Positions 1 through 55,771 of a stretch of DNA of 55,771 nucleotides are shown one piece after another. This DNA comes from Saccoglossus kowalevskii (Eukaryota; Hemichordata; Enteropneusta; Harrimaniidae): NCBI RefSeq assembly GCF_000003605.2, contig NW_003141807.1:24654-80424 (forward strand), written 5' to 3'. The number at the start of each line of letters is the position of its first letter. The stretch's first letter is position 1. The notes beneath the pieces are model-generated. The model ran no database searches and was not told the origin of the DNA. It saw nothing but the letters and a program-made list of their open reading frames with translations. Position numbers and translations under genes: made by a program.

Positions 1-62
1 TTTTCCAAGGAGCCGACTTTAGCTGCCGCCTTATCTTTAAAATCAAGTTTCTCGTCAGTTAT
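1..62 (-). CDS. Repeat 15 (R15) cassette exon, cut by the window edge
   Basis: The acceptor is TTTTTTCATAG before position 62. The open frame reads [20 protein letters not shown] to the edge, so KVGS is present but the PGGG part lies outside the window. The array therefore continues to the left. Confidence 0.9.
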   Translation of the reverse strand, partial: MTDEKLDFKDKAAAKVGSLE

Positions 63-3000
63 CTATGAAAAAATAAAAATGTTTAAATTGGATGTACTTT
101 AAATTGTACTTGAACTGTGACATGTATTAAGCTATTCATCACCAGACTTTCTTGCCAAAATTATTCTGCCCTTTTTTCTTATATTTTTTTAATATTTCTG
201 GAAATGAACCCTAATTTTGGAGCCAACAGACAAAATTTTCAGTTTTACTCAAAAAATTTGACTATTATGTCCCAATCTTTTGAAAGAAAGTGCAGACTAT
301 AAACGGAACTATTTTGTGAATTTGTGATGAAAAGAGGGAACTGGTGGTAAAAAGGTTGAAACTGCTAAAAACTATTGATTGTACATGTATGATTTTTATC
401 AGAAATATTTTTTAATAAAAGGTGGTCTAGTGGGGCTTACTTTGGAGGTTTTAAGAATAGTGAGCTATAATGAAATATTTAATTTTTGTGGAAATCACAA
501 AATAAGTTTCACCAATAAAATACAAGTTACAATTTTGAAGTATGTTAATTGAACTGTTAATTGCAATTACAGAGGCGAAAATTGGGTGGGAGATTTTAGA
601 AAATTTAGTTGAAAGAAAGGTTTTTTTTTATTGTTATTGTCACACAATGAAAACACAATTACAAGAATGAAGAAAACAAAATATAAACGGTTAGTCTATA
701 CATTGCAATTAAGTTATGACAAAGAATAAATTATTACAAAACACCAAGATTGAAAAGAAATCTAGAACACAGCACAAAGAAGTAAGAATAACAATTATAA
801 CATTTTCCTAATAGAAAACACAACCAAGACATTCCAGATGTTTTACGTATACCCACACACTGTCGCATATACAACATTAAAAAAAAGATTAGAATTGTTA
901 AACCCCTAAAACACTCAAAATCAGATAAATACCCTTTACCAAAACCACTTCAGGATAAAGATTATATATACACCATATTTTCTCTATTAGCAGCGCACAA
1001 AAATTATATTCATCGTATACTGGATTATTAAAATATGCTGTACTTTGACCATAGATTAATCTCTGTCATATACATAAATTGATGTGCTTCTAATAGAGTA
1101 AATACTGTATACATTTCTAGGAAAATCAGGTCGACACCCCTTACCTTTACACTACTAGTTCTTACATTATCCAAAGATCCAATGTGACTCGCTCGCTTAG
1201 AGTAATATATTTTGGAATAGATCTACAAAATTTGTACCACTTTGTTTTAATTCACAAAAAAATTGCAAATTATGATCTCGAAACAGAGCAAAAAGTGGAA
1301 AAGATGATCTACCACAGCGAGATTCAGAATAAGGTTTGAACCCGATTGATAAATTAACACTCCTTATGCTGGTGGATATAAAGGAATTGTCCGTACATTA
1401 AAACTCCATAATACAAATACATGGAAGTTTACACAGATACAATGTAAAAGTGAACACACAGATTGGCAAATCAAATTTCAATCAGTTAAATTTAAATACA
1501 TATTATTAAAGAAGAAGAACATTTCTCAAATCTGCTATTTTCTTGCGATATGTGGTGCACGTTACTCAAAATAAGGAACCTTTGTATAAATGGTTCCCTT
1601 AATGTTGAGTTCACAATTTTTTTTTTAATTTTAATCAATGTACTAAAAAAAGCTTTCTTGCATAGTTGTTTAATGCCTTCAAATAAGGGCACAGACAAAT
1701 AATTCTGATCCATTTATTTTCCAAAATGAATGCAGACATGTGGTTTTTTGTATTGTTATTGTAAAAATTGTCTTTTAATATAAATCATGCTTTAATTTTG
1801 GGTCAATTTCAGGCCAATTTGTGTCACATGTGTTTACATATTAAAATGACAGAGGAATGACTATTGTCAAAATATGTCATATTTTAATGATCTAGTATGT
1901 AATAAATGTAATTTTGGGTTTATTTGTACTTCTATTGGAGTTGTGTTTCTAATAGAGCAAATACAGTATTTGTACTTCTATTGGAGTTGTGTTTCTAATA
2001 GAGCAAATACAGTATTTGTACTTCTATTGGAGTTGTGTTTCTAATAGAGCAAATACAGTATTTGTACTTCTATTGGAGTTGTGTTTCTAATAGAGCAAAT
2101 ACAGTATTTGTACTTCTATTGGAGTTGTGTTTCTAATAGAGCAAATACAGTATTTGTACTTCTATTGGAGTTGTGTTTCTAATAGAGCAAATACAGTATT
2201 TGTACTTCTATTGGAGTTGTGTTTCTAATAGAGCAAATACAGTATTTGTACTTCTATTGGAGTTGTGTTTCTAATAGAGCAAATACAGTATTTGTACTTC
2301 TATTGGAGATGTGTTTCTAATAGAGCAAATACAGTATTTACCATAATGTAAAGAAAAAATGACAAAAACTCAGATTGCCAGTAGTCAGATATTTGGGCAA
2401 TATGATAATAACATGAAAAGAACGAAGTGTTCATCAAATACCAGATTAATGACTCCACAAAACAACCGAAATAAAGAGATAAATATACCTGTATATTTCC
2501 ACCCCCAGGTACGTGATCCATGTAGTCTTTAGATCCCACTTTACTCTGAGCTTTCTCTTTAAAGTCAACTTTATGCTCTTCAATCTAAAAAGACAACAAA
2601 AATTGCTTAAGAGTCATGTGACCAGCAGATTACACCAGATTTAGGAGAATATCTGATTGGATATGATTGGCTGGGAGGATGTTAATGTATGTATATGACA
2701 TAGTGACTGGAACAATTCTTCTTGTTGTCATGGAGGAAATAAATAACAAACATTGAAATGACTGTATGGTTTAAGCATTAAATTGAACAGTGATGGGTTT
2801 GATATGGGTTCTATGCAACAGTACATGTAAAATATACAACACACCGATGATCGAGTAAACATACTGATGACCTAGTAAACATACTGATGACCTAGTAAAC
2901 ACACCGATGACCTAGTAAAACCATTGATGACCTAGTAAACACACCGATGATCTAGTAAACACACCGATGACCTAGTAAACACCGATGATCTAGTAAACAC

Positions 3001-6000
3001 ACCGATGATCTAGTAAACACACCGATGATCTAGTAAACACACTGATGACCTAGTAAACACACCGATGACCTAGTGAACACACTGTTGACCTAGTAAACAT
3101 ATTGATGACCTAGTAAACACACTGATGACATAGTAAACATACTGATGACCTAGTAAACACACCGATAACCTAGTAAACATACTGACGACCTAGTAAACAC
3201 ACTGATGACCTAGTAAACATATCGATGACATTGTAAACACACTGATGATATAGTAAACACACTGATGACATAGTAAACATATCGATGATCTAGTAAACAC
3301 ACTGATGACCTAGTAAACATATCGATGACATAGTAAACACACTGATGATCTAGTAAACACTGATGACATAGTAAACACACCAATGACATAGTAAACACAC
3401 CAATGATTTAGTAAACACACCAATGACATAGTAAACACACTGATGGCATAGTAAACACACCGATGATCTACTAGATGACACTGATGACCTAGTAAGCATA
3501 TCGATGACATTGTAAACACACAGATGATCTAGTAAACATACTGATGACCTAGTAAACACACTGATGACATAGTAAACATATCGATGATCTAGTAAACACA
3601 CTGATGACCTAGTAAACATATCGATGACATAGTAAACACACCGATGATCTAGTAAACACTGATGACATAGTAAACACACCAATGACATAGTAAACACACC
3701 AATGATTTAGTAAACACACCAATGACCTAGTAAACACACTTATGATCTAGTAAACATACCGATGATCTAGCAAACCAACTGATGACCTAGTAAACACACT
3801 GATGACCTAGTAAATACACCGATGACCTAGTAAACACCATGATGATCTAGTATACACACCGATGATATAGTAAACATACTGATGACTTAGTAAACACTCC
3901 GATGACTTAGTAAACACGCAGATGACCTAGTAAACACGCAGATGACCTAGTAAAACCATTTATGATGTAGTAAACATGCCGATGACCTAGTAAACACACT
4001 GATGATCTAGTAAACACACTGATGATCTAGTAAACACACTTATGATCTAGTAAACACACTTATGATCTAGTAAACACACTTATGATCTAGTGAACACACT
4101 GATGATCTAGTAAATATAAATGAAATATTAATTATTATGCATGTGTTAATGTATTAAGTTGGACAATTTGAGAAGAGATAGAAGAACACTCAACAGATGA
4201 ATATACTGTTGGGTTTGGTTTTTTGCACAGAAAACATTTTAGCTCATTGTTGAAGAAGATTTGATTTCATGAGCTCTTTAGCTTGAATTTTAAAGGTTGG
4301 CGGTCATGGCATTGCATCCTGTTCAATATGTGACTTATAGTGACAAGCACAACTAGTTTGTTTGTTTACATGAAGTTTAAACATGTGCTGCATGACATTG
4401 ACTTGAATGTAACATACATGTACAGGAATATGATAGAAGCTTTCTATGAGATGTCTGCTTAAACAACTAGACATGCAAAATTTTCCAATACCACACAAAA
4501 GATTGACCCTTTGATATTTTTTCAAATATTATTTATCAAAGCCTGTAGTCAATAGGAAATTATATGATTCTGGTTCAAAATTAACTAAAAAATGTGCAAA
4601 ACATTGAACCACAATTTTTAGGGAAAAAAAAGGCTAATATTTGTAGTGGCTACTGATGAGTTTGCAGAGCTTGAATAATGTGTTTCTAAGCAAGGAAATC
4701 TGAATCTCCATGATGTAATTTATGATAAACAATTTGAGAAAAAGAGGCAAAAATTAATAAAAAAAATTAATAAAATTTAATAAAAAATAAACTTTAAAAA
4801 TTTTTTAGAATGCATTCCGATGAATAGTTGATTCCTTTGTGACCCTACCTTCACCTTGCCACCACCCGGAGTGTGGTCAATGTAATCCTTTGAGCCAACT
4901 TTGCTCTGTGCTTTCTCCTTAAACTCTAGTTTATGTTGCTTAATCTGCCAAAAAAATCACCATGACAACCCAGTTATTGAACTGTAATATTGTAATGATA
5001 ATTTTGTAATTGGAGCGTCAATCCAGTATTAGAAGTTTACAATATTTTCTTAGTTTGTTCAAGTTAATACAATTATTATTACATAAATAATATTATGTAG
5101 ATTTTAAGATAGCTGACAGGTGACCAGTCCTGCGTCTGTCGTCTGTCGTCCGTCTATCTGTCTGTCTGTCTGTGCACGACTTCTTCTCAAAAACTGCCGA
5201 ACCGTTTGACTCGATTTTTGATGTGTGAATGCCTTGATGAGTGTAGATGGTAATTTGTTCATGAGAAGTCGATCTGTCAAAAATTATGCAAATTAGCCCC
5301 CAAAACTCTAAAATTTCTTCTATGCTACTATGACACTAAGTGGTCTACAGTGCTGATATTGATAGTACATGTGGCTTGGGTTGTTCTCTATCAGTTTTGT
5401 TAATATGGTAAGGACATTTTTAATTTCCTAATTTTGGCGAATATTTTAAAATGGTAATTTTTGGTCAAAAATTCTATTTTCGACTTCTTCTTCAAAACCG
5501 GTAGCCTGAATGCTTTGATACTTGGTGTGTATGTTTGACATCTACTAGATTTGTTCATCCCATGGCCATATCTGTAATTTTCTATTTTTAGCGAATATTT
5601 TTGTCATTCTTGGTTAAAAATGGAATTTCAACTAACCACTATTTCCAATGCTTTGGTGTTAGGCATACATGTGTTTATTATTCCATTGACAACTTTGTTG
5701 ATTGTCTATTGTGATTGTAATGAAAACATAACCACTCAACATATTTAAATGTGTATAGACATGATTGATTTTGGTGGGAAAATATGCAAATTGCCTAATT
5801 TACATACCAATATTTAGGCTATTTTGGTGATATCTTGAGAACCATTTAATATGTTTTAATAAAACTTGGTGCATAGATGTGTTGGGGCAGTTTCCAGATA
5901 TATTTAGTTTTTGGTGGAAATTTATGCAAATTATCTAATTTGCATATCAGCTAGTGAAATTCAAGTTATTTGGGTGCTATTTCAAGAACCATTCAACATA

Positions 6001-9000
6001 TTTCAACAAAACTTGGTATATACATGTATTACGAATTCAGATAATTGCAAATATCATGTTATGTTATTTTCTCAACATGCTGGAGTTCTTTTTAAGCTCT
6101 CTTTGATTCCAATTTTATTGCTGGGAAAGGATTGACCGGCTTTGTTGTTAGTCCAAGAAAATTGTTCAGCTTGGAATGTGTCTGAATCCCTCATTAGTAT
6201 GCAAGAATGTAGGAATGTACCAAGAAAACTGTTTTTCTGGAATAAATTGTAGTGTATTTTACTTATGAATGGTCAAAAAGTGCATGGAGATTTTATGAAA
6301 ATGTGTGGATGTTGATAGAATGATGTCATGTGGTCACAGTTACGTAATAAATGATGGACTATTTTGGGCGTAGCTATAAAATGTGTCACCGAAGTACTCA
6401 CACGCATGCATGATTCCAATAGTTTGTGCTGTGAAGAAACTCCATTAGAAAATAAGTATTGTGTAATTTGTAGTGAGAATGTATTTAAATAGATTTATGT
6501 TTATAAATCTTGTTTCTTTTCAAAGTGTATTTATATAATAAAAATTGTTTATAAAAATGTTCTTTATACTTTTTCGATGAATTGAATTTACAAATGATGA
6601 GTTATTTTGTTATACCATCACTCGAATTATGTGTTACGAATTTCTGATAGTTTAGGCTTTGTGTTGCCTGTTCGACTATTTCGCTCGTGTTTCCCTTTCT
6701 GTCTTAGTTCTCTGTTTTCTTTGATTTTTTTTATTTCAATTAAACAGCAATTTGGCTGTGACCATGCATTTAGTCATTGTCGACTGTTTTTTTTTCGAAT
6801 TGGTTGATTGTCATAGCAACATACGCTTTAATTAAACGACTAGTCCGGAGTTGAACAGTAGTCATTTCTAACATGATGATTTAATTTTGTTTAATTCCTT
6901 CAATTAAAAATTGAGTTTCCAAAGTAAATAAATAATACATACCCTCATGTATACTTCAAGTTTTCATTAAAACAAAGTCAAAGTCTTTGAAATTGCTTTT
7001 TTGTCTGTTCGCCAATCCATTGCTTCAAAACACACCTTTAAAACTCTTATTTTCCCAGCATCGAGATGGCTCTGCCAACTCTTGTTGAATATTTCTGTTA
7101 TTTTTGTAAAAAATTCCACTTTTAGCATTATGTTTTATTGTCTCACTCACTGTCTTTTGGGGTATTTGTCATATACAGCACTAATCTTTTGTACAATAGC
7201 CGTTAAGCAACAGGCCATTGGCCTATTTTTTTTATTTAAAACTTAGCATAGGTACTTTTTTTTTAAATATATCTGTATTTAACCATTTTTCGGAAATGGT
7301 GGACTGACCATTAGACTGTACTGTTGGGTTTGATTTTCCAGCATGCAGAAGCAAATTTAGATCACCACTGAAGAAGATTTAATTTCATGAACTCGTTAGG
7401 AACTAGTTATTCTGGTTTTTAATAAACCAAAAACTTGATTACCGTAGGTGACTTAAATGTAACATACATGTACTGAGATGTAATAGAACCTTTCTTTCAC
7501 CAAATGTAAACATGTCTATATTTTGATTCTCTGAGACTATACCACAACTGCTTGTCTGCTTCAATAACTCATTAAAGTTTCCAACAATTTTGAAAGTTTC
7601 ATGACTTGTGAAATTTTCGAATATTTGCATCTCAAAACTGATCATGACATGTAGTCGATAGGTATTTCTATCCTCCTGGTTCATAATTAAGGATAAAATC
7701 TAAAAAAAATTGCAAAATCTTGCACCAAAAATTGCCATGAGAAAGGCTCATTTTTGTAGTGGCTGAAGAATTGGGAATACTATACTGGGTTTGCAGAGAT
7801 TGAATAATGTGTTTCTAAGAAGAAAATCTGAATCTCCAAAAATTTGAGAAAGAGAGACATTAAAAAAAAATGATAAAATTTAACAAAAAAAATGTAAAAA
7901 GATTTTAGAAAGCATTCGATGAACAGATGATTCCTTTGTGACCCTACCTTCACCTTGCCACCACCCGGAGTGTGGTCAATGTAATCCTTTGAGCCAACTT
8001 TGCTCTGTGCTTTCTCCTTAAACTCTAGTTTATGTTTCTCAATCTGCCAAAGAAATCACCATGACAACCAAGTTATTGAAGTGTAACAATAAACCTAGTA
8101 TGTGATGATAGTTTCTTAATTGGGACTTCAATTATTTTTAGTTGTAATAAAAAACATCTGATGTTAGAAGTTTAGATTAATTTCTTTATTTCTTCAAGGT
8201 AATATAATAATCATGTATTTAAAAACAAAGCACCAGGTATCCTGGATTGCTCAACATACAGGGTTAACCATATTTTTAGTCCCTGTTCGAACAAAGTCCC
8301 AAAACAAGGACTATTAATTTGGGCTCTGCCAGTCTGTGTGTCTGTCCAGAGCCATTTCTTGGTCATACTTTGAGTGATTTCATTCAAATTTCATATAAAG
8401 ACATTGTATGGTGACTTACATATGCACGGCGATTATCTTTGTCATTCGATCAGATATGACATTTTACTTTAAATTAGTATTATATATATTGTACTTTTAT
8501 TACTAACATTTTATTTCTAAATATGGTCAAGACAGCAGATACTATCACTTGTAATGTATTGTAATGTATTGGGTAATGTAAGAAACCGATTAGTATCCAT
8601 AGAAACATAACTGTATGAGAATATGAGTATTCTCTAAGACAGACAATAACAGAATTAGAAGAAAAAAAATTATTTTCAACTTAGCCCTTCGTATGCCAAA
8701 GTCAACTTCTGTCACAATTCATGAAAATGAGGAATTTTTTTCATACTTTTTCCAAAATTGTTATCGAGACCTTTAACCAATAAGAAATTGTGTGCATTTG
8801 GTTCAAATTTAAAAAAGAAATTATATAGAAATACACAAAAATGTAAATGCAAGAAATATTATGAAATTGAAGTGTATTAGCTAGGCAAGGGAGATAGAAG
8901 TTGATATAAGCATTGTGCGATCTTGTTTGCAGTTGCTGGTGATGTTCGTGGACTATTGTGACATAGGTCTGTCTTAGAGAATAAATGGAGGGTGAGATGC

Positions 9001-12000
9001 TCGGATCACAATAAAAAAGAGGAGTTATTTGTGATCCTACCTTCACCTTGCCACCACCCGGAGTGTGGTCAATGTAATCCTTTGAGCCAACTTTGCTCTG
9101 TGCTTTCTCCTTAAACTCTAGTTTATGTTTCTCAATCTGCCAAAGAAAACAATCACCACAATAGAAGAGTTACCATTAGCAGAAGTGCAATAGTGTGCAG
9201 ACTTTGTAGAAGTATAAGTATAAAATAGAGATAATACTTTTAGATTTATTGAGGTGCATTTAAAGATATAAATGAAATCATTATTCACAACACATAGACA
9301 TATACTTGGATAAACATCATAACTACATTTGGCCCCTCAAACATCATAACTACATTAGGCCCCTCAAACATCATAACTACATTAGGCCCCTTCAAATATC
9401 ATAACTACACTAGGCCTCTCCTTCATTTAAAAACCATCATTTTGCCCAGACAAATTTTGATGCAAAACTTTCCCTGTACAGTAGCGGCGGCACTTAGGGG
9501 GCTGACGGGGTGGTCGCCCCCCTCGAAAAAAATGTGCTGAAACCCTTTGTGACAGCAAAATTTGCCCCTCAAAATGCAGGTAATAGTGTTTCATGGGGAC
9601 TATATTTCAAAATTTTTAAGGGGGAGCATGCCCCCGGACCCCCCTAGTGAGGTCGCGTCTTTGCCGTGAGGGATGGTGAGCCCCCTCCATGCAAAATTTC
9701 ATGCCGTCGCCTCTGCTGTAGGTATTATGTTAAACAAGTATTTATACCAGTAATTCCAAACCAAATACATATAATTTTCCAGGTTCGCATAGAAATTTAG
9801 AAAAAAATATGGAAAACAAAATAGTTTGATGCTCAAAGGGTTAATGCATTGGAGATAAAACGACCATTATTCTAGAATAATAGTCATATATTATATTCAG
9901 TGTTGACACATCAAGAAAGCGTTTTTACACACAAAAATGTATGTAACTGGTGTGCTATAAATACTAAATATAATGCATATATTCTCAACATGAAATACAC
10001 TAATGCAGACACAGCTCACATACAGGAAAAATGACAATTATGGCATTAAAGAACGTCAATTCAAAAATACAAAATTTTCACTTCTCCCAACTTACCTGCA
10101 CCGTTCCACCACCAGGCACATGGTCAATATAATCCTTGGACCCAACTTTACTTTGAGCTTTCTCTTTAAAATCTAATTTACGAGTTTCTATCTTTTTTGT
10201 GCCTCCCCCAGGAGTGTGCGTGATATTTGCCTTGGAGCCGACTTTTGATTGTGCACTCTCCCGAAACTGTATTTTATGCCGTTCAATCTACAGAAGTTCA
10301 ATCAGAAATTACAGAAAAAAAACATTATTATGAAGAAAAAAAAAATTATTAAATTTGTAGGGGTTAATCTTGGTTTTACCTATGGTATGAAAATGAAAAT
10401 GTTAACAATGAGAGTTTTTTTTTAGTTTGAAGTGCCACTGTTGTTGCATCGTGTCATGTTTATTATGAGTCCCTTGGAAAATACACTGTGATACATAATT
10501 TGAATGTACATTGCACACCGATATTACTTTAAATGTTGGTACCGTATTTGCTTCATTAGAAGCGCATCTCCATTAGAATCGCACATAAACCAAAAATTGC
10601 ATTTATTGTATGCTCGTTCATTAAAATACGGCTAATTTCGACACAACTCTGTCATTTACATGTAAAGCCTATGTGCTACTAATAGAACAAATACAGTAAT
10701 GATATTACATTATAGGGAAGATGCAGCATATGATTTATCTATGATGTCATCATAATGATCAATAACCATGATATGCAAATCTGTTATCTTAATTTTTTAG
10801 CAAAAATGAAAAAAAAATGACATTATTATATACAAGCTGGTTAAAATCATAAGGCAAATTATTGTAACTGACTTTATTTACAAATAGGTCAATGACCCCA
10901 TTCTTATTTCATAAAACATAGTTCTATACACTTTGTTATTATCGTGAGTCTCAAAATAATGGCTTAACTTTTCATAAATGAATTGACATGGTTTTACTTT
11001 TTCTCCATGTATTAACTCTGATAAAACTATAACAAGTTTATATTAAAAATTTGTGATCGATATTTTTTTATTGTGTATGACCTTGTGTGGCAATAAGCAA
11101 TCTATTCAAAAAGTTTTGACAACTTGCAAGAACTTTTATGAAACTATATAAATTAAATTTAATTATACTGTATTGTGTACTACCTTTACTTCACCGCCTT
11201 TTGGTTTGTAACCCGCATTGTCCAGAGAACCTATTCTACTCGACGTACTGTGGAAATCTAATTTTTTATTTATAATCTAGAAAGGATCAGAAAAGAAAAA
11301 CAGAAAAAGAAACAGAAAATTTTGAGAGTGTGCACAAAATTGCAAATAAAGAATTGGTTAAATATTAAAGCATTTTGTTAAAGCCTGCAAGGAAATCAAA
11401 TTCATCCATGTTAATTTACACTTTGCCCTTCTTTCTACCCAGGATATCTGTGAATTTAAAAGCAGAAAAAGGCACCAACACTTGAAACAAACCTGCTGTA
11501 AAATAATTTCAATTGAAATACATGTACAAAGTTTTCACCACAAGAAAAGTTAACAATGAAGTCAACAACCACAACCGACACTTTGTTCCCATAGCAAGTC
11601 TTCTTCTTCCAACTGTCATCCTGAAAAGCTAAACAATGCATTATGTAAAACATATCCAATTGTTTTCTCTTGTATATAAAATAAATTATTGCAAATTATT
11701 TTAATTACAATATATTTACTCAGAAAAACATTATTTTAGCAAACTGCAAACAATTTATATTGAGTGCCTGATAATAGTTACATGCAAAAAACTAGGGAAA
11801 GTGTATTTTCACAAGATTTTATTTTCATTGGGTAGTGAAAATAAAATCCAAGTGGAAACAAAGTAATCAACAGTAGATAACAATAGAGGGCTCAATAACA
11901 AGTTACAAGAGTAAAGCACACTGCAAAGTCGTAAGTTTGACAATATTGTTGGTACCTGCACAACCCCACCTCCCGGGGTATAATCTATGTTGTCATAGGA

Positions 12001-15000
12001 ACCAACTTTACTCCTTGCTTTCTTTTTAAAACCTAATCTTTCATTTGTAATCTGACAGAAGTTAAAAAAAAAACATAAAATACAAAAAGTTTTAAAAAAA
12101 ACATTCTTATTATACTTGTACAGTATTTTAACCACAGCTTCTCATTTAAAAGATGGAGTTTCCAGAAAAAATAGTTTCTAAGAGTGTATCACCAGAAGTG
12201 CGAAAAGTGTTTAAAATATAATCTTGCTTTACTGGGTTAATGACCATATTCCACTAACCATTCACCAGACTGGTGAATTACATTCGGATTTGGTTGAACA
12301 TTCACATCATTTTTGCAATGATACCCAAATAAAGATATTGTTAATTGCTTTAATTTTCATAGAAGACAAATTTTATCACAAAACTGAGATGAATTTTTGT
12401 AACAATTTTGTAGAAAATGTCACTTGGGTTCAGGTTCTTTTTAACACAGTGACTTCCATAAAATAAATTCAGCAAAATTTAATTGCCATGGCAACACATA
12501 TATCTATATATCACATATATATATCACATATATTAAGCTACATTTTGTGTTCATTCTATATTCTGTATTCACCATTGGCTGCAAATTGTCTTTATTGTTT
12601 TTGATTTGTTTTATCTTTCTTGAAAAGTTTTTATTTTTTGTTTTCCTTTTTAGATTGTAGTTTTTTAATTTCTTTCTGTAAGACCCTTTTTATCCTTTCC
12701 TAAGGATTTTATGCGTCTAATAAAAAAATAAATAAATATAAGGCGGGAATACAACACTGCAAACTTGAGTGAGAGTACTGAAATATCAGAAAGATGCACT
12801 GCAAACCATGTGGTACATTTGTATGAATATCCCCGTCACCTGGCAGGTATGATAGGTTTTCATAGGAACCAGTTTAATGTATTTTATTTGAAATCTTAAC
12901 TTACATGCAATAATTTTCAACTGACCTGAATTGATCTGACCTTTGACTTCTCCAATTTTGTTTAATTTTCATGATTGCCAGTCAGGAGGCAATATGACTG
13001 ATGCAAGTNNNNNNNNNNNNNNNNNNNNNNNNNNNNNNNNNNNNNNNNNNNNNNNNNNAATTTTGTTTATTTTCATGATGCCAGTCAGGAGGCAATATGA
13101 CTGATTGCAAGTAATATCGTGGTCGGGAATCAAAACTATTAATTTTTGTTTAGTATTTTTTTTTTACATTAATTTAACCGATATGTACTGCATATCAAGA
13201 GTTAAATCTTTCCAACATTTTGGTGCAAAATTTGTTGAAAAATATTAAAATATGAGTTAGGCATTCAAAGGATAATTTGATACTACAAATCTAAACTTAA
13301 ATCGAGGAATCTCCCTTCACACACAAGTTTGACGTTGATTAATACCTTGACTTCCCCACCACCAGGGCAGTAATCCAGATTCTCCAAAGAACCAATCTTA
13401 CTTGCGGCTTTCTGCTTAAAACCTAATTTTTCGTTTACTACCTGTGAACAATTTGTAAATAAACAACAAAATAAATAAATACTCAAATGTAAAAATAGAA
13501 GATTCTAAACACCACACATCTTATACTTTGAGAATTAGAATTGAGTTACACAGGGAGCTGAGGTGAAACAATTTCCAAGTGTCCATAAGAGATATTACAA
13601 CAGATTGAATTGAGTCAACCAAAAAGAATAGATTAAAATCACACGCAATTGGCATAATACACAAAGGATAAGATAAACAACCAATAAGAATCACTCTTAT
13701 TTAAAAAAAAAAACGTCACACGGCGAAGGGAACAAGGTTCTAAAAAGTGTACCTTAATGTTGCCATGCCTAGGCGTGTAATCTATGTTGTCACGGGAACC
13801 AACTTTACTTGATGCTTTGTTTCTAAAGTCTAATCTTTTTAATTCTATCTGTGTTTTATAGTTTTAAGATGAGTAAAAATAAAAATAAAAAAAAGTGTTA
13901 TTATCCAAACTGACTCTTTCAGCACCTGAACTAAAATTAGCGTATTCAGAGTCTTGAATGATAGCAAGTCTTCAGAGTTATTGATAGCAAGTCTTCAGAG
14001 TTATTGATAGCAAGTCTTCAGAGTTATTGATAGCAAGTCTTCAGAGTTATTGATAGAAAGTCTTCAGAGTTATTGATAGCAAGTCTTCAGAGTTATTGAT
14101 AGCAAGTCTTCAGAGTTATTGATAGCAAGTCTTCAGAGTTATTGATAGCAAGTCTTCAGAGTTATTGATAGCAAGTCTTCAGAGTTATTGATAGCAAGTC
14201 TTTACAGTTAGTGATAGCAAGTCTTCAGAGTTATTGATAGCAAGTCTTCAGAGTTATTGATAGCAAGTCTTCAGAGTTATTGATAGCAAGTCTTCAGAGT
14301 TATTGATAGCAAGTCTTCAGAGTTATTGATAGCAAGTCTTCAGAGTTATTGATAGCAAGTCTTCAGAGTTATTGATAGCAAGTCTTCAGAGTTATTGATA
14401 GCAAGTCTTCAGAGTTATTGATAGCAAGTCTTTACAGTTATTGATAGCAAGTCTTCAGAGTTATTGATAGCAAGTCTTCAGAGTTATTGATAGCAAGTCT
14501 TCAGAGTTATTGATAGCAAGTCTTCAGAGTTATTGATAGCAAGCCTTCAGAGTTATTGATAGCAAATCACACAAACTTTAATAGAGAAAGACAAATTTGA
14601 AGTCTTTTTAAAAGACCCCCCCCCATTGACAAGTTGGTTTTCATTCATAGTAGATATAAATGTAAACCATTTATTTTTTGCTAGAAATGGTAGCTATTAT
14701 CATACTTTGAGTGTGTTGCCAGGACAACACTTTTATATGTCACTGTGACACCTGTCTTAAAGACACCAGTGAAATCCTCACAGCTACAATACTCTTTTGT
14801 TTTGTCAATAGTGCCCTCTACTGTAAAATACTTTATTTTAGCTGGAATTAATTTTCACTGAAAAGACTGTTTGAGTGTTTTGTATGGAATTTATTTTCAC
14901 TGATTTTTGATGAGTTGAATGTGAAATATAGGAAAAAAAGTATATTCCCTGGATTTCATTTTCACTGAATCATTCCTTCAGTGAAAATTAATTCCAAGCG

Positions 15001-18000
15001 AAAATAAATTATTTTACGGTATTTGATGCAGTGAAAATCCTGGCAATTGTGGGCGTTCTTTTACAAAGCAAGCTGAGATCAGATATGTTAACAAATAAAT
15101 ATATTGAGTTACAAAGAACAGAATATGAGACTGGCAACCTGAAGAAGAAATTAATAAACACAGACGCACACTATGTACTCGTATTCTCATGTACCTTAAC
15201 CGTCCCTCCTCCAGGCTGATACGTCAGGTTTTCGAGTGAACCCACCCTGCTGGAGGCTTTTAACTTAAAATTGGATGGAAAGGTTTCAATCTAGATGGAT
15301 GATTTAATAATAATAATGAGAAAACAAAATGATGATGATGATAAATCAACTATACTTTAAATCACTAAAAGGTGGACCATGATACTCTAGGTGGTGCTTG
15401 AATGTGTAATTTAAACCCCCCCCCTCCCAGTTTCTAAATGTCCACCCCTAATGTAACAAAAAAACTCTCAATTACAAAAATAAAAGCATCTATTTGTCAA
15501 ACCAGAGAGCCTTTATATGTAAGATCTAAAAACAAATATTTTTAATGCACAAACTGTTAATTAAAAATTGATTTTTGTTGGTAACAATTTTTACTGCGTT
15601 ACTTGAACACTGGTATTGAATGTTTAAAGGGCGGTAGTCGTCGCGCTGCACATGTGCGACATTTGTGTTCATAAACATTGATTTTCCCACAATCCAATGC
15701 GCCATTCTAATGGAAGGTTTGACCTGGGCGCGACTTTCACTAATTACCTCCGGTGACTCCTTCGATAACAATCACCTAAAATACCTAGTTAAAACTTGGT
15801 AACGTCTCAGTTTGTACTCGTTGATCTGCGCAACAGTCAAAGTCGGTGTCTTTGTTTATATGAGAGCCATATATCTCGCTCATGCGTGGCGAGACGACTA
15901 TCGCCCTTTAAATGGTCTTATTATTTTTTGGGGCCGAGCTATGTCACAGAACATTCTACGTTGCTAAGACGCGCACCACTGTACCATGCATTTCCATGGG
16001 TTCGGTGGGAGCTGCTTTGGAATGACAGTCAAAGAACCTGTGAAAAAGCTTAAGTCAAGAAAACAGCACAAATGTAACCATGAGGTACATGTAATCTTGA
16101 ACAACCAAATTTATGTAATATGTTTCACATGTAGGGGTAATCTTGTTACACTGTTCAGGAGAGTCACAACAACTATCCCAAAGTACTGTTTGCTCAGAGT
16201 TTACTGCCTTTGTTTTCACCCGGTGATGGTTGTCAGGTGATGAAAATTCCGATGTCCACCCCCCAGAAAAGTAGATGGACAAATATTTGTTGACATTCTT
16301 TAATTTTATAATGATGATTCATGAAACAAAGTTATTCGATTGTGTGCACTAGTTGTACACTGAATTTATTTCACTGAGATTTCACAATGCTAAGTCCAAT
16401 AAATGATATTGTTTGATTTTCAAAAAAGTATATGAAAAAAAAATAAAAAATTGGAATTTTGCAGCTTTTAATTTGAAAAAGAATGTAAACAATATACTCC
16501 TTGTAAAAATAATAAAAAAATAAATTATTACAATTATTTGTAAGAAAACCTGTAAGAAAAATGTTATGCTCAAATTTTAGACACTTTTTTGTATCAATTA
16601 AATAGAAATAAACTTTGTTTTTTGAGACGAATTGTTTTGTATTTTTGTCGTCTTTCACAAATAAAACCCTCATAATTTGTTTTCCCCAATTTTCTCAAGA
16701 CCTGTATCAAATAGCAAATTGTGTTCGTTTTGGTCCAAAATTATCAAAAATAATATGTCAGATAAATACATAAAATGAGTAAAATTTTAGCAGGAAAGAC
16801 TCTGGAGCACAAAGAGTAATTTGTATAATACCGTTTTTGAAAAATGGTCGGGTTTTTAAAATACAAAATAACGATAAATTTTTGACCAGTCGAATTTTTT
16901 AGAGTGAAAAATGAACAAATATAAAAGTTGGATTATATACAGGTGCAGAAATAGTTATAGAAAGTCATGTCTTTAAACAAATTGTTTGAGTAAAAATAAG
17001 TGATCAATTTCTGGTGAGGTCAACATTTTTGAGGTCAATAAATTACAAAAATTTGCCAAATAATTATTTAGGTGGTTGAATTTTTAGAGTGGGAGAAATT
17101 TGAGAGTTTTTACGGTAATCTGTGCTACATTAGTCTTTGTTTTACCGAATAAATACATATTGGCTTAAATCACGGTTACTAGTAACCATGGTTACATGCT
17201 TTGCTTGTGCCTTTTTTTTAGTACCGAGATTTACTATTACATGGATTAAAAAATTGTCAAAAAAGGCAGCTTTCCTCGGTTAAAAATAAGCACTACAGGG
17301 TGATAATAATATGCAATGATATTTACCTTGACTTTGCCACCACCTGCTTTATGTTGTAAATTGTCCTTCGAACCAACCCGACTTTGTACTTTAATATCCA
17401 ATTTCTCATTCACTATTTTGACATTTCCACCCCCTGAAAACAGAATTTTTAGCATATATTTTAATTTTAGCATATGTTATAATTAGTATGTAATTTATTA
17501 AAGTGCAAAATATTCGTTGGTGTGAGACATAGTTTGTTTCTACCCTCTAAGCCTCATTCTGAAAACAAGTTCACGTGTCAAGTTCAAAGTTCATGTCTTG
17601 TCTTCAGTCATTGTTATATACAAAGTATTTAATATGATACCTGCTTTGTGCGTAGCATTCGCCATTGAACCACATCTAGCGGAGACCTTAGAATAATCTT
17701 TTTTTTCCTCAAAAATTTTCACCTGAAACAAAAGAAATGAAAATGTTTTATTTATTTTATTCTAAAAAATGTGGTATTAAATTTGTGGATGGATTAAGTT
17801 TGTTTGTCTGTGACTAAATGTTTTTCACAAAGAAACTTTTTGAATGTATTGTTAAACTGAAATCTACGCAATGAGCCTGCAGGTGAACGTTGAATGAAAT
17901 ATTCTGGCAATGTTTGCTGTACTCCTAATACATTTCATTTATACAATTTAGTAACCTTTTCACCACCAGACTTCCTTGCCAACATTTTTCTGCACTTTTT

Positions 18001-21000
18001 TCTTATATATTTCTGGAAATGAACCTTAATTTTGGAGCCAACATACAAAATTTGAGTCAATTTTCAGTTTTTACTCAAAAAATTTGGCTATTTTTGTCCC
18101 AATCTTCTGAAGGAAACTGCAGACTATAAACGGGACTATTTTGTAAAATTGTGATGAAAAGAGAGAACTGGTGGTAAAAAGGTAAAGTGGTTGTTGTCTG
18201 GAAAATAGTCCGTACATTTTTTAAACACGTATAGTTTTAAATCTCTTTAAATCGCTGTATAACATATTACAAATTGAAACATATATTGAAATAGATTAAT
18301 TCAGTTTTTTGAGATTATTTACTAGGTTTTCAAATTCACATATTTTACAGCAATGTCTGCTATATTGTAATTGTCCCTATCGTTATGGATTTAATTAAGC
18401 AGATTTTACTCAAAACTCAGTGAATAATTATTTTTTTCAGTAATACTCAATACGTAAGCAATGAGTATGAGTCGAACTTTTTTTATTGATTTCAACAAAA
18501 GTTAATTACTATAGAGGGGAACTATTACCTGGGGGAAATTTTCGCAGAGATATTCACTAGGTTTTAAATTCACTGGTATGTGAAGAAAAAGCTGTGAAAT
18601 ACTTCATTCTAGCTGGTATTAATTTTTGCTGAAAAGAGTTTTGGAGTGTTTTGTATGGAATTTATTTTCACTGATTTTTGACGAGTTGAATGTAAAATAT
18701 AAGAAAAAAGGTATATTTGCTGGATTTTATTTTCACTGAATCATTCCTTCAGCAAAAATTATTTCCAAGCGAAAATAAAGTATTCACTGGGTTTTAATTT
18801 AGTGCACATTTAGCGTACAGCAGAAATAAAATGCAGTGAATAATGCAGCCCTATATAGTATACTTCAGTCAGTTCTGATATAAGATTAGTACACAAATCA
18901 AATTCTAAAAATAAACTAAGAACCTACAAACTTTTTAAAACCAAAATAGAACAAGAAAACTACTTAACAATTATGAAAAACAGTGAACTTCGCAAATCCT
19001 TAACAAAATTTAGACTTGGCAACCACTGTCTGAAAATTGAAACAGGCCGGCATACAGGATTGGATTTTAAAGACAGAGTCTGCAATATGTGCGACAATGA
19101 CCATGTTGAAGATGAACAACATTTTGTCACAAATTGTCCTCATTACAATGAAATAAGATTAAAACTTTACATTGTAGCTAATAAATGTATACCAAATTTT
19201 GACAAATTTAGTAATGAAAATACATTCATATCATTACTAAGTGACGAGAAAATGTCTATTCCTTTAGCGCAATATTTAAAAAAAACTGTTTTAATACAAG
19301 ACAGCAGCACCTACATAAACTAAGCCAGTAATACATTCCTTGTATTCAAATTATTATCTTTTTTTTTTATGCCTTTTTGTTCCCTTACTCTTTATGTGGT
19401 TATTTTTCTTTTACTAATATCTGATTTGTAACCCTTTTCATCCCCTCCGGGGGATGTTGTGTGTTAATAAATAAATAAATAAATAAAACACATACCTTAC
19501 CACCACCAGGTGTGTGTTTTAAATAATCTGTTGATCCAATCTTAGACTTGACGTTTTTGATATCTGGGGTCTTTGCTGATCTATCAAATCCTAAACTGTT
19601 CCTCTTCTCCGAACCTTCTGAAGAAGCTGGAAAACAAAATGACCAAATATTAAGTAAACCGACAACGTAGTGACTTTAAATTGTATCCTCCTGGAAACCA
19701 CGCTGACTCCAAAATTCATTGAGTACACATAACCAGACGTAACCATGGCAATAATAATCCATCAACAATAGACAGCAGAATTTCCTGAATTCACTAAAAG
19801 TTTTTGCATCAGAATGAGAAGTATACTTATAGCCTAGCAACCAATATGCATCACGGTTACCACGCACTCACCATAATTTTTTGACCTGGGCATACTCTGG
19901 ACATGTTCAGGCGGTTGTCACCACTCGCTGCCTGTAAACATATCTCAGCGTTACCTGACTCAGATTAGCTATGTTCACAATGGATTACCTGTTTTGTTCT
20001 CAGGTTTTTTATTTCAGGTTTGCACGTGTAAAAAGGTTGTTTGATCAATACTCTCATTTGCATATCAGAGAAGGTAACCTACTCACTGTATCTGTTTACT
20101 CTGGGTTTGCTAGAATACTTATTTAAAAGTATCAATTTTGACTTTTCAAGACAACAATCTGCTATTTTTATTCTCAATTCAGGCATGACGTTCTACACTT
20201 GCTTGCAGCTTTTATCTTGTTTTAGAGTCTCTTTCACTTAAAAGTTGCTTTCTATAGAGATTAATTTTAAAGTTCTATTATGAAGCACAACCGCACATGT
20301 TGAGAAGTCACTGAAAAAAAATACTATCGGTAGTACAATGTATACTTCTTGACTTTTCAGATTTACAATAAAATCCGTCTACTTTAAAAAACTTTATTTT
20401 AGCTGGAATTAATTTTCACTGAAAAGACTTTTTGGGTGTTTTGTATGGAATTTATTTTCACTGATTTTTGACAAGTTAAATGTAAAATATAGGGAAAAAA
20501 CGGAACCGGTATATTCGCTGGATTTTATTTTCACTGAATCATTCCTTCAGCGAAATTGGAGAAAATAAATTCCAAGCAAAAATAAAGTATTTTACAGTAT
20601 TAGAACAGGAATCAGTGTCATTGTGTTTCCAGAGTGAGATGTTAATTCCAAGCAAAAATGCTAAAATCCTGCATTTATTCACCCAAGTAATGTTCTTCAT
20701 TGAAACTAATAAATTTCACTTGATAATGGTTACTTTGAACACGAAGACTAAATACAAAATTAAATTCAAATACATAAAAAAAAAAAAACTAATTCAAGCT
20801 CACGAAAATAGCTCAAATTAGTTCGAAAATAGTTAAAGAGTAGAACACCTCTATAAAAAATGAAATCCTGCCGCGGAGAGAAAACCAAATACAGTAATGG
20901 TGGCTTACATGTGTTAGTATTGATTTATCATACTGGACAGTTGTTTTGAACGTGAGATAATTCTATGAGTTGGCGGGGATGATTCCCGAAACCACGGTTA

Positions 21001-24000
21001 CACGGTCATATCCAACTTTGAAGTTTTGAACTAATTTTTGAATCTACAGTAAACTGTCGTTAATAATAGGATTTTAATTGTTCTCTGCATAAATTGATAT
21101 TTTTGTTCTTGTTTGGATCATCAATATTATGATCTATGCATAATGGTAATTATATGTGGACTGATATTGTTGTGGACCACACAATTGGAAATATATGAGT
21201 CATACAAGTCTTTAGGCAAAAAGTAAATGACCATCTGAGCCGCTGTTGAATGTCATACAATTCACTAAAAATGAAAGCATTTACAACTATCGCTAACTCT
21301 CTGTTACTGAACAATAATTTATCTGTTGTCACATTTGTCAATAAGTAGATTATTGAAATACTGATATTTTTAGGAAAGAATAAATCGTAAACTTTCCACA
21401 TATATTTTAAAATTTTGTTGCTCATCTCTGCTTGTTTTCACAATATTTTCTAAATAAGTAACTTAGATATTTCAAAATATAATATCTGCCACATGCGCAT
21501 CATATCTGCCATTATTATACATCTGTCACCATAACGCCATAAGTTAAAGTGTCCCGTAATTTTGCGGTATTGCACTGGGTATTTGCATCCTACCATATTA
21601 GGAAATGTGCATAAGTGTCCACTAATAATAAAAACAAACATGGTCCCCAGGGTTTGACCGAACCCAACACAAAGAAGTTCGTTAAATCTGTTCCATACAT
21701 ATTGGATTTCGGCATTCACATGATGTATCCCTTGGACAAAAAGATGTATAAAAATAAGGTTATTACGAAGATACCTCAATATATGCACTCAGATAGTACG
21801 CTGTTGGATCGACCTCCGCTGCGTGTTGGTCGATACTCCAGCTGTACTGTCTTCATGCATACCTTGTGGTATTCTCATAATAATCTCATATTATAAACAC
21901 CGGTACATGTGTCTTTCACTGTAATAATTGAAACAGTCATATTTGATAAAAAAAATGAAAAACCAATCATCATGTTACCATTTTTCCAGTTTAAGACCAA
22001 GTGAAGGAAAAACCAATTTGCATAGTAGTTTTACTTCACTTTCCCCAGAGTTTCCAATAGTCACCCCTATCACATAATAATAATTATAATTATAATTACT
22101 TGACTCCTTCCTTTGTGTTGCACTGGCTGCTCTTCTAGGAGACGAACTGCCAGCATTGATGGGTTTTCTTGTCTGTGCACTCATAGCTCGTTTTGGTGAT
22201 GCCACGGCACTTGTCAGAGTCACACTGGCTGGCCTTCTTGGACTGCTAGTTTGTCTTGGTGTTGATTGTTTTGAGGTAGTGTTCTCTCGCGGTGTTGCAC
22301 TGACCGGACGGCGTGGAGTTGATGCTGCACTTGTCGGTCTTGATCCACTGCCTGTATCCGTTCGAGGTTTGACATTTGTGATTTTGACTTTTTGATCAAA
22401 TATTTTAATGTTCCCACCACCTGGTTTATGTCCTTCTTTCTTGGCTTCAATTCTACTTGTCACTTTTTTAACATCAATCTATGAAAAAAAGATAAAAAAT
22501 ATAAAATACTAAACTATAATATATAATTTCTTTGCCAAACTGTTGATACATAGCATTTTTTGATGTAAAAGTTAATGAAACATCTCTGCATCAAACATAT
22601 TAAAAACATGCTTTGTGAGGTAGGCTCCAAAGAAAACATAATTATCAGTCAATTTGTCTTCCAAAATCAATACAGGTGCTCATTTTATTATTTTTTGAAA
22701 TATAATTGACTTAAAAATTGTGCTTTTATTAAAATTAAATAGAATTATTAAAAATTGTGCTTTATTAAAATTAAATAGGATTATTAAAAATTGTGCTTCA
22801 TTAAAATTAAATAGGATTATTAAAAATTTTGCTTCATTAAAATTAAATAGGATTATTAAAAATTGTGCTTCATTAAAATTATAAGTTATGCACACAATAA
22901 TATAAAAACTTAGTTATAGCGCCCTCTATCACAATCAGTGGAAATTGATAAAAGTTCTTTTTACAGCCTATTAAGATATCGGCTTTTCACTTCAAAATTT
23001 TGTTTTATTGATATTTTCAAATATTTTAGGTCTATTTATATTTTAATTTAATATAATTTTAAGAAGCTTTGAATCAAATTGAAAATTGTCTCATTTTCTT
23101 TTTACCAATGCATTGTATTGTATCTCTTTTTTTTCATTGGTTTATTATGATAAAAGTTGGTGACTTGGAAAAGTTGTACATTCGGATAAGAATCCTATTG
23201 TTAAAAAGATTTCCAAATTTCACATTTAATTCAGTGAAATTCCACTGTCATTATGTTTTTTTTACCAAAACGTCAGAAACATTGAATTTAAACCCTGAAA
23301 ATATATATTGCATGATTATTTATATAAACGCCAATACAATGGTGATTTCCACAAAACCATTATATGAAGTTGATTTAAATGATAATGTCCTTACATTTCA
23401 ACATTTGCAATTTTATATGAATTCGCTAACAACTTACGTGAATATTATGTTTTCACTTCCAAAGTTAATTGTAATTTTATACAATAAAAATGTGTTTCAC
23501 GGTGATAAAGGCAGATGGGGAAGTATTAACGATGTGTACAGTTGTACTCATTATGTAAAGCCTGGGTCCATTATCACATTAACAAAGGTAAAGACAGTGA
23601 AATTAGTCCTGTATCTACCACATTGAAATTAACCCTGTATCTACCACATTGAAATTAACCCTGTATCTACCACTTCATTAATGAGTAACTCACACTGTAG
23701 ATAGTTGTCATCGGTATGCACAGCAATTCCTAATACAAATTTTGCTATTCCATAATTTTCCTGAATGCCTTCAATGCTACATTATTTTGAGAGTATTCCT
23801 AATACTTGAAATTTGAACTCTCACAATATTAATGTAGAAACCAAAAATGAACATTTAACTGGGGTCCTAGGGAGTTGTACTGAAATATTTCGCTGGGTTC
23901 TAGGGAGTTACATCTGGGGTAATTATGACATGAAGTCTCAGTTACTTTTGCAAAATTTGTTCCAGTGAACACTCATAAAGAATCCTGAAGTAAAAATTGA

Positions 24001-27000: not shown

Positions 27001-30000
27001 ACAACAACATTTGTTCAATGTTAACCATTTATTAAATTCTTAAGTACCATCATTATTCTCGCCAAAATTTCAGTGCACCGTTTTGCCTATACTACTTTCC
27101 TAAGTACTAAGTACTTTCCTTTAATTATTTAAATAATTTTGGTCTAGATCTAAATTTTGGAGAAAATATGTGAAAATTGTATCATTTTACTTTGTAAATG
27201 GTGATGACAGTTGACTTTGGCGATTGAGGACTGAAATAATGATTCTGACTGAATGCATTGAAGGATTATTTGAGTTGACAAAATATCTTGTGACCAGAAA
27301 CAACCTTAACATTCCATCATCCTACAGTGTGTGCAACGATACACAAAATTACAAATAAAAGGTGCAGATTTGAAACTGACATTTCGATGATAGCGATGAT
27401 GACAACATCTTGGCCTAATGATTATCTTTGGTGCATGTTTACGAATAGCACTCCTAGTTCAAATGAAGACATTGGGGTTCAATGACCTATATATGTCCCC
27501 AGATATTACCATATAACTAAAGAATTGTGGCTATTTATGGATGCCATAAACACCTACTTGTGCTGTATTTATGACATCCATAAGCCACATTGATGTCTCC
27601 TAAGTTTAAAGCTTTCTTGTAATCTAATAAGATGGACAGTAGCAGTTACTGTGTTCAATAATACTTGCAACTTTCCCATACAATAAAAATAATAAAAAGA
27701 CAAACTGTTGTGAACTTATTTTCTATAATAGAGGTGTTTTCACATTCACAGGCAATCTTACTGTGGTTTCAAATTTCATGGTCTAGAATTTACTATTATG
27801 TGGCATATGTATTGAAGGGTTGACTATTATGAATTATGGGAGTGATCCTAAAGAAAATGTTTTTTGCTTCCCTCTACTAAATGTTTTTTTTTTTTTCTGT
27901 AAATATTTTTTTTTTCTTCCCATGGTCATCACCACAGCAAAAAATAATCAGCCAGATATTTTGGCCAATTTCGAGATTTAGTTTGCCCGTAATGTGCCAT
28001 TTAGCAGCTTACTTAATTTTTAAAGTTCTGGTTGTATTTCTGCAGTCTTTTGTAACAAATGCAGTTTTGATTCCAGTGGCTTAATTGTTAAAAAGTTTAG
28101 CATAAACAGAATTTACCTTTTCTGATTTGATCTTGACATTTCCGCCACCGGGTTTATAGTCTTCTCGCTTTGCGTCGATTCGTGGTGTGCTTGTCTTTTT
28201 TGGTGATTTAGTTGATGGAGATGAGGGTGGAGGTGTCTTTCCTGATGGTGTCTTCGATCTCACAGTGGTTGATTTTGTTGTTGTTGTTGCACTGACTGCT
28301 ACTGCAACAGGTGGTGTTGCCGCTGTATCTGTTGGCATAGGCTGGGTTTCTTGAGCTGCTTTTTCATCAATTTTCTGGTTTTCAGGCTCTTTGGATTCCT
28401 GGATTTCAGGTTCTTTGGATTCCTGGATTTCAGGCTCTTTGGATTCCTGGTTTTCAGGCTTTTTGGATTCCTGGATTTCAGGCTCTTTGGATTCCTGGTT
28501 TTCAGGCTTTTTGGATTCCTGGATTTCAGGCTCTTTGGATTCCTGGATTTCAGGCTCTTTGGAATCCGGGATTTCAGGCTCTTTTGATTCTGGGATTTCA
28601 GGCTCTTTGGATTCTGGGATTTCAGTCGCTTTTGATTCTTGGATCTCGTTACCTAAAAAATAGAAAATTGACTTATAATTATTAATTGGTCTACTTTGTT
28701 ATTATTGGCTAATATTTTATCTATTGATATTTGTTATTGGCCAAAATATTTACACATATAATTTTCATTCTTTTTTGGATATGAAAAAAATACACATTAA
28801 AAAAATGTGGCAGATATTATGTTTTCAGGGATGGTAAAATGTATGAAAAAAAAAAGATAAAATGTTCAACACCATCAGAATGTAGGTCAATATTTAACCC
28901 TTTGAAACACCAATGGTTAACTGTCAAAGCACCATTTGTTTTAAAGGGCAATAGTCGTTGCGCCACGTATGCGCAAGATATATGAGTCTCATATAAACAA
29001 AGATGGCAACTTTGACTGTTGCGCAGATCAACGAGTACAAACTGAGATGTTACCAAGCTTTAATTAGGTATTTTTTAGTGATTAAAAGGTATCGAATGAG
29101 GCACCGATGATAATCAGTGCAAGTCACACCCAGGTCAAACCTCATACTTGTGATTTCCATCAGAAGAGCGCATTGGATTGTGGGAAAATCAATGTTTATT
29201 ATCACAAATGTCGCACATGTGCAGTGCGACGACTGCTGCCCTTTAAGCATCTCAGAACAAGTAACAAATCTCTTTTTTCTAGCTTAGCCAAATGTTCAAA
29301 AACTTTTTTTGAATAAAATATAGCTTTTAATAATTCTGTAAACAGATGCAAATTAAATTTAGGTTGGCAATTATAACACTTTAAAATCAAGAATCAACCT
29401 TTTACAGAATGGAATGTGGTATGTCTACATCTATCTCTGTCTCTCTAAATGAGAGCAGCATAAACATTTTAGATTTGTTGGGTTTGCTGCAAATAGCAAG
29501 GTCAAGGTTATATAACTTGAGGCTCAATACCAACCTTAGTGAACTCTCCTGTGAACACTACAACCATTGAAAACAGATTCTGTTAAAGTTTCCGCTATAC
29601 AATTAGTTTTCAAAGTGTGCTTTGTCCAAAGTTTTCTCATTAAAATAACCTTGTGAAATTGACAGTCTTGTAATGACTTTGTGTTATCAGACTTACATGC
29701 ACATTGATTGGCTCCTGACTAAAGCTTGTTTATGTTTATGTTTATGTTTATGTTTATTATTTATGAGTATGTGATGTAGAATAATAACTCCTGCTGGTCT
29801 GTGATATTAAGAGATTATAAGACTATCAACACACTACCAGTATATGTTAGGGGTGCACCATTTAAAATTGAGGGGGCAGGGTTTGCACTTATGATGCTTT
29901 AGTGTAATTTTTGTAACTGATTAGTTAAGTCTTCTGATCTTACCATGTTTGTTATTATATGACATGTGCTCATTAAGTTTTCATATACTCTGGTCAATAC

Positions 30001-55400: not shown

Positions 55401-55465
55401 CAGTACACGGATCTCAATCTTACCATCTCCCTTCTTGTCAAAGATAGAGAAAGTATCTCTCATTT
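52420..55465 (-). CDS. MYL6-like: Myosin essential light chain (EF-hand), 3' part of gene
   Basis: Four exons join in consistent phase: 55465-55325, 54201-54037, 53053-52976 and 52448-52420, ending at TAA. The protein has an N-terminal EF-hand ([13 protein letters not shown]), [63 protein letters not shown] and a short tail [10 protein letters not shown]. This order is characteristic of myosin essential light chains, which bind the first IQ motif of the myosin II lever arm. The first codons lie beyond the right edge. Cytoplasmic versus muscle type cannot be told. The C-terminal EF loop is degenerate. The gene is upstream of, and in the same orientation as, the tau-family gene. Confidence 0.95.
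52976..53053 (-). CDS. Essential light chain exon: fourth EF-hand
   Basis: This 78-nt exon has acceptor TTTATAG and donor GTACAC; entry phase is 1 and exit phase 1. It encodes [20 protein letters not shown] and then GQINYE. The degenerate EF loop lacks the usual first Asp pattern, as in other essential light chains. Confidence 0.92.
53522..53730. mobile_element. MITE family A, copy 4 (light chain intron)
   Basis: Same internal anchors, ending ATAAAGTATTTTACAGTA. It inserted in an intron of the neighbouring gene, showing that the family is dispersed and not specific to the tau locus. Confidence 0.88.
54037..54201 (-). CDS. Essential light chain exon: linker and third EF-hand
   Basis: The exon has acceptor TTTCACAG and donor GTAAGT; entry phase is 1 and exit phase 1, with 54 full codons. 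It encodes [15 protein letters not shown], a [14 protein letters not shown] linker and the loop [12 protein letters not shown]. That loop has Asp, Asp, Asn, Thr and Glu at positions 1, 3, 5, 7 and 12, a calcium-competent pattern. Confidence 0.95.
55325..55465 (-). CDS. Essential light chain exon: first EF-hand
   Basis: The exon has acceptor TTAAAG and donor GTATTT; entry phase is 1 and exit phase 1. Its 46 codons begin [20 protein letters not shown] and then [20 protein letters not shown]. The EF loop has Asp at positions 1 and 5 but Val at position 12, so calcium binding by this loop is doubtful. An upstream exon must supply the first base of the codon preceding Met (G|AA, Glu). Confidence 0.93.
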
Positions 55466-55771
55466 CTTTAATAAAACAAATAATATTTTTAGATCAAAAA
55501 CTACTATGTAACCAACATGTTTCAGACAATTTCAACACTTGAACACCTTTCTTCATTTACACTCAAGACGCAGTAGTGACCAATACTACACCCAGCGATG
55601 AAAATAGAATCTTGTCTCTGAGTGCAGTGATCATACAGGCCAGATCTCATAAAACAAAAAATTAACCAGGAAAATAAGTTTAGTTAAAAGGTAGCTACTT
55701 TGTATTATAAAGACTTGCAAGCTATAGAAAAGTGTCATAATCTGGCTGCATACTTTTTAAATCAAGCCACC

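Follow-up and report, generated by a model that had tools for sequence, protein, structure and literature searches.

A tau-family gene with at least 15 microtubule-binding repeats in the acorn worm Saccoglossus kowalevskii

Gene structure

We analysed a stretch of 55,771 nucleotides (hereafter the window) from the acorn worm Saccoglossus kowalevskii (contig NW_003141807.1, positions 24,654 to 80,424 of the forward strand), in which an earlier note, made from the sequence alone, had recognised an expanded array of tau/MAP microtubule-binding repeats. On the minus strand we placed 18 exons of a tau-like gene, from exon N, starting at 38428, to exon P at the window edge (Table 1). All 17 splice junctions inside the window are AG/GT with matching phases, and the joined exons encode 931 residues with no stop codon. 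The spliced protein broadly shows the layout of tau, MAP2 and MAP4, in which an acidic N-terminus is followed by a basic proline-rich region and then by the repeats: the first 122 residues contain 4 K+R and 23 D+E (net charge -19), and the net charge is -10 for exon A, +20 for exon B and +43 for the repeats. The 11 whole exons from E to Q are all phase 0-0 with a length divisible by three, the twelfth (P) being cut. Judged by its sequence, the gene is real and codes for a tau-like microtubule-binding protein, which is expected to be disordered; we infer its first exon and the absence of further small exons.

Two details of the coding sequence were also recorded. A tandem repeat of 24 bases (28375-28644, about 11 copies) is coding and corresponds to the octapeptides of exon A, in the projection part of the protein. 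The string VQIINK, which has a filament-promoting role, is created on splicing across the junction of exons H and I (11956 / 11276), and the same string starts human R2 in the alignment.

Table 1. Features placed in the window, in the order of transcription
Feature	Position	Strand	Description
Myosin essential light chain gene	52974..55493 (approximate limits)	-	three exons, at about 55.5, 54.2 and 53.05 kb; upstream of the array gene, same strand
Exon N	38062..38428	-	ATG and acidic N-terminal region, ends in phase 1; open frame, donor GTAAGA, joins exon A in phase; putative start
Exon A	28117..28652	-	[12 protein letters not shown] octapeptide repeats, proline-rich stretch, divergent PGGG module without KxGS; module alone has no Pfam match
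Exon B	22100..22478	-	divergent PGGG module and basic SPRR-rich region; PF00418 17.4 bits, below the cut-off of 27
Exon C	19496..19626	-	R1-like repeat, KIGS
Exon D	17641..17722	-	repeat, RCGS; 82 nt; phase 0 to 1; split inside GGG
Exon D2	17327..17433	-	repeat, RVGS; phase 1 to 0
Exon E	15195..15290	-	repeat, RVGS; phase 0-0
Exon F	13753..13848	-	repeat, KVGS; phase 0-0
Exon G	13346..13441	-	repeat, KIGS; phase 0-0
Dead cassette, kin of exon H	12823..12911 (approximate limits)	-	internal stop codon, no clean splice sites; between G and H
Exon H	11956..12051	-	repeat, KVGS; phase 0-0
Exon I	11184..11276	-	repeat, RIGS; phase 0-0
Exon JK	10096..10287	-	two repeats (J, K) in a single exon; phase 0-0
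Exon L	9041..9136	-	repeat, KVGS; phase 0-0
Exon M	7948..8043	-	repeat, KVGS; 96/96 bases the same as L
Exon N2	4849..4944	-	repeat, KVGS; 94/96 bases the same as L and M
Exon O	2489..2584	-	repeat, KVGS; phase 0-0
Exon Q	1145..1222	-	decayed repeat, HIGS, no PGGG, splice sites intact; PF00418 13.7 bits, below the cut-off
Exon P	1..62	-	repeat, KVGS, cut by the window edge; PF00418 25.9 bits for 20 residues, below the cut-off of 27

The repeat array

The array consists of 16 successive (K/R/H)-x-G-S motifs on the minus strand, 15 of them with K or R and one (exon Q) with H-I-G-S, and the GS pair is retained in 16 of 16 units. The 15 canonical K/R-x-G-S repeats announced in the earlier note were thus recovered in full, in exons C to P (19626..1), as were its two divergent PGGG modules, one in exon B and the other in exon A, upstream of the interval 1..22478 to which it had assigned the array. 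The array runs off the window, as that note had also claimed, with exon P cut; given that the contig extends 24653 bases further left and that repeats were counted inside the window, the total is a lower bound of at least 15 canonical units. The spacing from one GS to the next is 32 residues in 10 of 15 intervals, 30-31 in four and 28 in one (Q to P), so that 14 intervals fall within 30-32 residues and the register is kept. PGGG or AGGG is present in 12 of the 16 repeats, altered in F (PRHG) and I (PKGG) and gone from Q, while P is cut before the motif. The non-canonical parts are the decayed repeat Q, the modules of exons A and B, and one dead cassette.

The identification as a tau/MAP array was borne out by profile searches. 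The spliced protein matches PF00418 with 603.6 bits against a cut-off of 27 (expectation value, E, 2.3e-186), with 16 stretches at E up to 0.1, and among its solved-structure relatives at E up to 0.001 we found 50 distinct sequences, every one named tau (best 1.4e-45). When ten single pieces were scanned, C, D, D2, E, F and I exceeded 27 bits, B, Q and the cut P stayed below, and the module of exon A gave no match. A profile built from the other 14 strong repeats scored exon P at 22.5 bits, compared with at best -1.2 bits in the reversed window. On these scores, the match of the array to tau repeats is far beyond chance. With the same profile the dead cassette reached 5.8 bits (E 0.028), and its local score against exon H was 80, compared with at most 56 in 200 shuffles.

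In searches of the assembly, for which masked stretches counted as N, the gene also appears to stand alone. A whole-assembly PF00418 scan, in which 19 candidates were scored, returned 14 repeat matches, spread over 13 exons of this gene and each above the cut-off (best 2.6e-13); the match of exon E counts one TAG, which is the splice acceptor just upstream of that exon. No second tau-family locus was present among those 19 candidates, and a protein query hit 12 places, all in this gene. When the DNA spanning L and M was used as query, the hits were that place, the N2 region (77%) and short fragments scattered over many contigs; of 1240 candidates 40 were scored, and none of these was a second copy of the locus.

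Origin of the repeats

To place the repeats relative to those of human tau we used BLOSUM62 local scores. The best match of repeat C is R1, that of D is R3 (then R2) and that of D2 is R2 (then R4), whereas 12 of the 13 later repeats, carried by 12 exons, are closest to R4 and the remaining one, I, to R2; the assignment of exon Q is weak (41 for R4, 39 for R3). The pseudo-repeat R' entered the comparison with just 18 residues, too few for it to come first on full length, but for the part of repeat J up to GS it scores 55, compared with 51 for R4. In the alignment, the later exons start with I or V, often as I-E-x-x-K-L, like the human R' stretch, with which the human exon starts. Human MAPT exon 11 has 82 nt and a phase-1 split inside GGG, matching exon D. 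Read from these scores, the first three repeats look like the ancestral R1 to R3/R4 set, and the remaining ones would derive from repeated duplication of one R4/R'-type phase-0 exon, some copies of which later decayed. The decay of exon Q and the dead cassette indicate that cassettes are born and die.

Pairwise site counts were made over 45 non-independent pairs of 10 repeats (E, F, G, H, J, K, L, M, N2 and O). Pooled, the proportion of synonymous differences (pS) is 0.69 and that of nonsynonymous differences (pN) 0.26; in the seven pairs among K, L/M/N2 and O, pS is 0.73-0.90 and pN 0.10-0.14, values that fit old duplications whose peptide has been held by selection. The repeats further divide into subtypes by the residue two places before PGGG or its variants, which is Y in E-I and H in J-O.

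L, M and N2 form a case apart, as they have 0 synonymous differences. Over 470 columns, a figure that includes gaps and the exon, the surroundings of M and N2 align at 77-78%, with 44 mismatches in 349 ungapped flanking positions (12.6%), and the alignment of L to M extends for 137 bases only. Given the divergence of the M/N2 flanks, zero differences at 19 synonymous sites would be mildly unlikely (P 0.08), and at most two differences in 96 bases would have P 0.0003, a value that ignores purifying selection. Recent exon-sized copying or gene conversion of L/M/N2 is thus possible.

We also noted that the near-identical L, M and N2 with their differing introns lie in regions 7922-9151 and 4544-4987, and that introns of the gene hold minisatellites at 1921-2339 (46 bases, about 9 copies), 2838-4114 (20 bases, about 64) and 13959-14565 (23 bases, about 26). 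An open frame of 154 residues at 18859-19320, on the plus strand, has no Pfam match but looks like the end of a non-long-terminal-repeat retrotransposon.

Gene neighbourhood and other contigs

About 15 kb separate the array gene from the myosin light chain gene upstream of it. The 130-residue concatenation of the three light-chain exons matches myosin light chain 1/3 at 1.8e-41, the best plain calmodulin reaching 5.1e-32, and among ten open frames of the window compared with Pfam two light-chain exons matched and eight gave nothing. Vertebrate linkage groups join MAPT with MYL4, MAP2 with MYL1 and MAP4 with MYL3, according to PMC4815063. The adjacency seen here suggests that the MAP-MYL linkage predates the vertebrate duplications. 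The neighbourhood of the vertebrate paralogons also takes in KANSL1, ADAM and GRN; matches to PEHE (KANSL1), ADAM_CR and granulin were found on contigs other than that of the array gene, and are separate from it in the current assembly. A bacterial promoter scan of 100 bases added nothing.

Within the same assembly, contig C4830 (17037 bases) is the mitochondrial genome, in which Pfam identified COX1 and we named the other genes by inspecting their frames. Its gene order shows an inverted COX1, ND2 ahead of ND1 and CYTB after ND5, and the tRNA-Lys has the anticodon TTT. ATA occurs at what we judged to be conserved Ile sites, and AAA at Lys sites judged likewise; there are 6 AGA codons, and a single AGG in eight frames, ahead of the likely COX3 start. 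The published descriptions of the S. kowalevskii mitochondrion give a COX1 inversion, a transposition of ND1 or ND2, AUA for Ile, AAA for Lys, no AGG and the anticodon UUU (PMC3121625), and ND5 adjoining cob (PMC2697986). From this agreement we conclude that the mitochondrion comes from S. kowalevskii or a close relative, a hemichordate, and reject a mollusc as its source; a lancelet fits neither the code, with ATA at Ile sites, nor the gene order. A bacterial-code tRNA scan of the two halves of the contig added nothing.

Proposed function and alternative explanations

Our preferred reading, to which we assign a probability of about 0.65, is that the single tau/MAP2/MAP4-family gene found in the acorn worm encodes, through its array of at least 15 repeats, a long, high-avidity microtubule staple. 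Along a protofilament, each repeat of one molecule would take up one tubulin dimer and the next repeat the next dimer, as in cryo-electron microscopy (cryo-EM) models of tau; with a dimer length of 8 nm, the full-length protein could reach over about 16 dimers, or roughly 130 nm, and such an array would stabilise longitudinal contacts. Splicing could add or drop repeats and leave the frame intact, since 11 of the 12 exons from E on have a length that is a multiple of three, the other one being cut. We hold more tentatively, at a little under even odds, that the whole array is translated into a single protein with 16 or more repeats, each exon corresponding to one dimer, that evolution and splicing set the length gripped, and that the near-identical distal repeats were selected because number matters. 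Of the roles proposed in the earlier note, bundling is conjectural, and 'processive' does not suit a protein without motor activity. Long isoforms, action on microtubules, high avidity and control by splicing are all features that we infer.

In published cryo-EM work, R2 lies across one alpha and two adjacent beta subunits, with one repeat per heterodimer along the protofilament, and Ser262 of R1 contacts Glu434 of alpha-tubulin (PMC13224075). Bundling by MAP4 fragments is described as varying with repeat number (PMC10232483, citing Tokuraku 2003). Several points weigh against the staple. Other tau models set the repeats across protofilaments or in the lumen (PMC13224075), and microtubule straightness was alike for MAP4 with 3, 4 or 5 repeats in one study (PMC10232483). 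Not every unit is needed, as one cassette, between G and H, is dead and Q has decayed, and the 28-residue spacing from Q to P, together with the loss of PGGG from Q, would break the register there. The proximal repeats and J are far less conserved, with pN up to 0.46 between pairs; the C-terminal end of the protein lies beyond the window edge; and the array is read here from genomic sequence.

The most serious competitor is a splicing reservoir, in which each transcript joins few cassettes and the proteins carry an ordinary 3-6 repeats of varying type. The phase 0-0, multiple-of-three design of the 11 whole exons from E to Q suits it, as does the split into Y and H subtypes, but the identity of L with M, and nearly with N2, fits a need for more units better than one for different units, and we consider this explanation unlikely, at about one chance in four. 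Far less probable is a decaying array, in which many cassettes would be pseudo-exons and unequal exchange would have produced the array neutrally: the decay of exon Q and the dead cassette speak for it, and the intron minisatellites mark a slippage-prone region, but K/R-x-G-S is intact in 15 of the 16 repeats that bear GS, the frame of all 16 is open, the observed splice sites are AG/GT, and the pooled pS greatly exceeds pN, even if the pairs are not independent.

Misassembly, or uncollapsed haplotypes, of a gene with 4-5 repeats was an objection that the earlier note had raised against itself, and we find it the least credible of all. The near-identity of L, M and N2 would be expected from it, and the window contains three gaps of Ns, one of them between G and H. 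Most exons, however, differ strongly; K, L and O are near synonymous saturation; the flanks of M and N2 have diverged, with L alignable to M over a short stretch only; and no second copy of the locus appeared among the candidates scored. For the array as a whole, we therefore rule misassembly out on the differing introns, the saturation of K/L/O and the lack of a second copy in that search.

Comparison with known tau-family proteins

Hemichordates lie on the sister side of the chordates, and the gene described here combines a large expansion of tau repeats with an exon layout that is in large part that of vertebrates and with one neighbour that vertebrates also have. Human tau has three or four repeats, and its 3R and 4R isoforms only touch the question of how the number of repeats affects microtubule affinity, dwell time and bundling, for which the acorn worm array would offer natural constructs; it is also material on the origin of the R' pseudo-repeat. 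With vertebrate MAPT, MAP2 and MAP4 the gene shares an acidic N-terminal part, a proline-rich basic part, KxGS-PGGG repeats of 31-32 residues, phase-0 repeat exons, a nearby myosin light chain gene and the phase-1 split inside GGG; it differs from them in having at least 15 repeats, mostly of R4/R' type, compared with 3-5 as a rule.

That rule, stated in the earlier note, holds for vertebrates in general but is not the ceiling of the family in print, which reaches 7 in fish and 10 in the oyster. No tau-family array of 15 or more repeats came up in the open-licence literature searched, PMC4815063, PMC8985376 and PMC8840921 included, and a search of that literature for hemichordates with microtubule-associated protein tau yielded progranulin work only; no gene model database was consulted, and the acorn worm gene could well have a public annotation already. 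Repeat expansion itself is already known, and the acorn worm array is larger than the published ones that we found. According to PMC4815063, Notothenia coriiceps and other teleosts have MAPT with 5-7 repeats, likewise expanded by duplication of a phase-0 repeat exon; there the R2 exon was duplicated, whereas in the acorn worm R4 is the best match for 12 of the 13 later repeats. On average, repeat number is highest in molluscs, some of which have 7-10, in the account of PMC8985376, whose main text names no hemichordates. Its Crassostrea gigas MAP, compared here by its published description, is likewise an invertebrate tau-family protein with an expanded array, but it belongs to a mollusc and has ten repeats.

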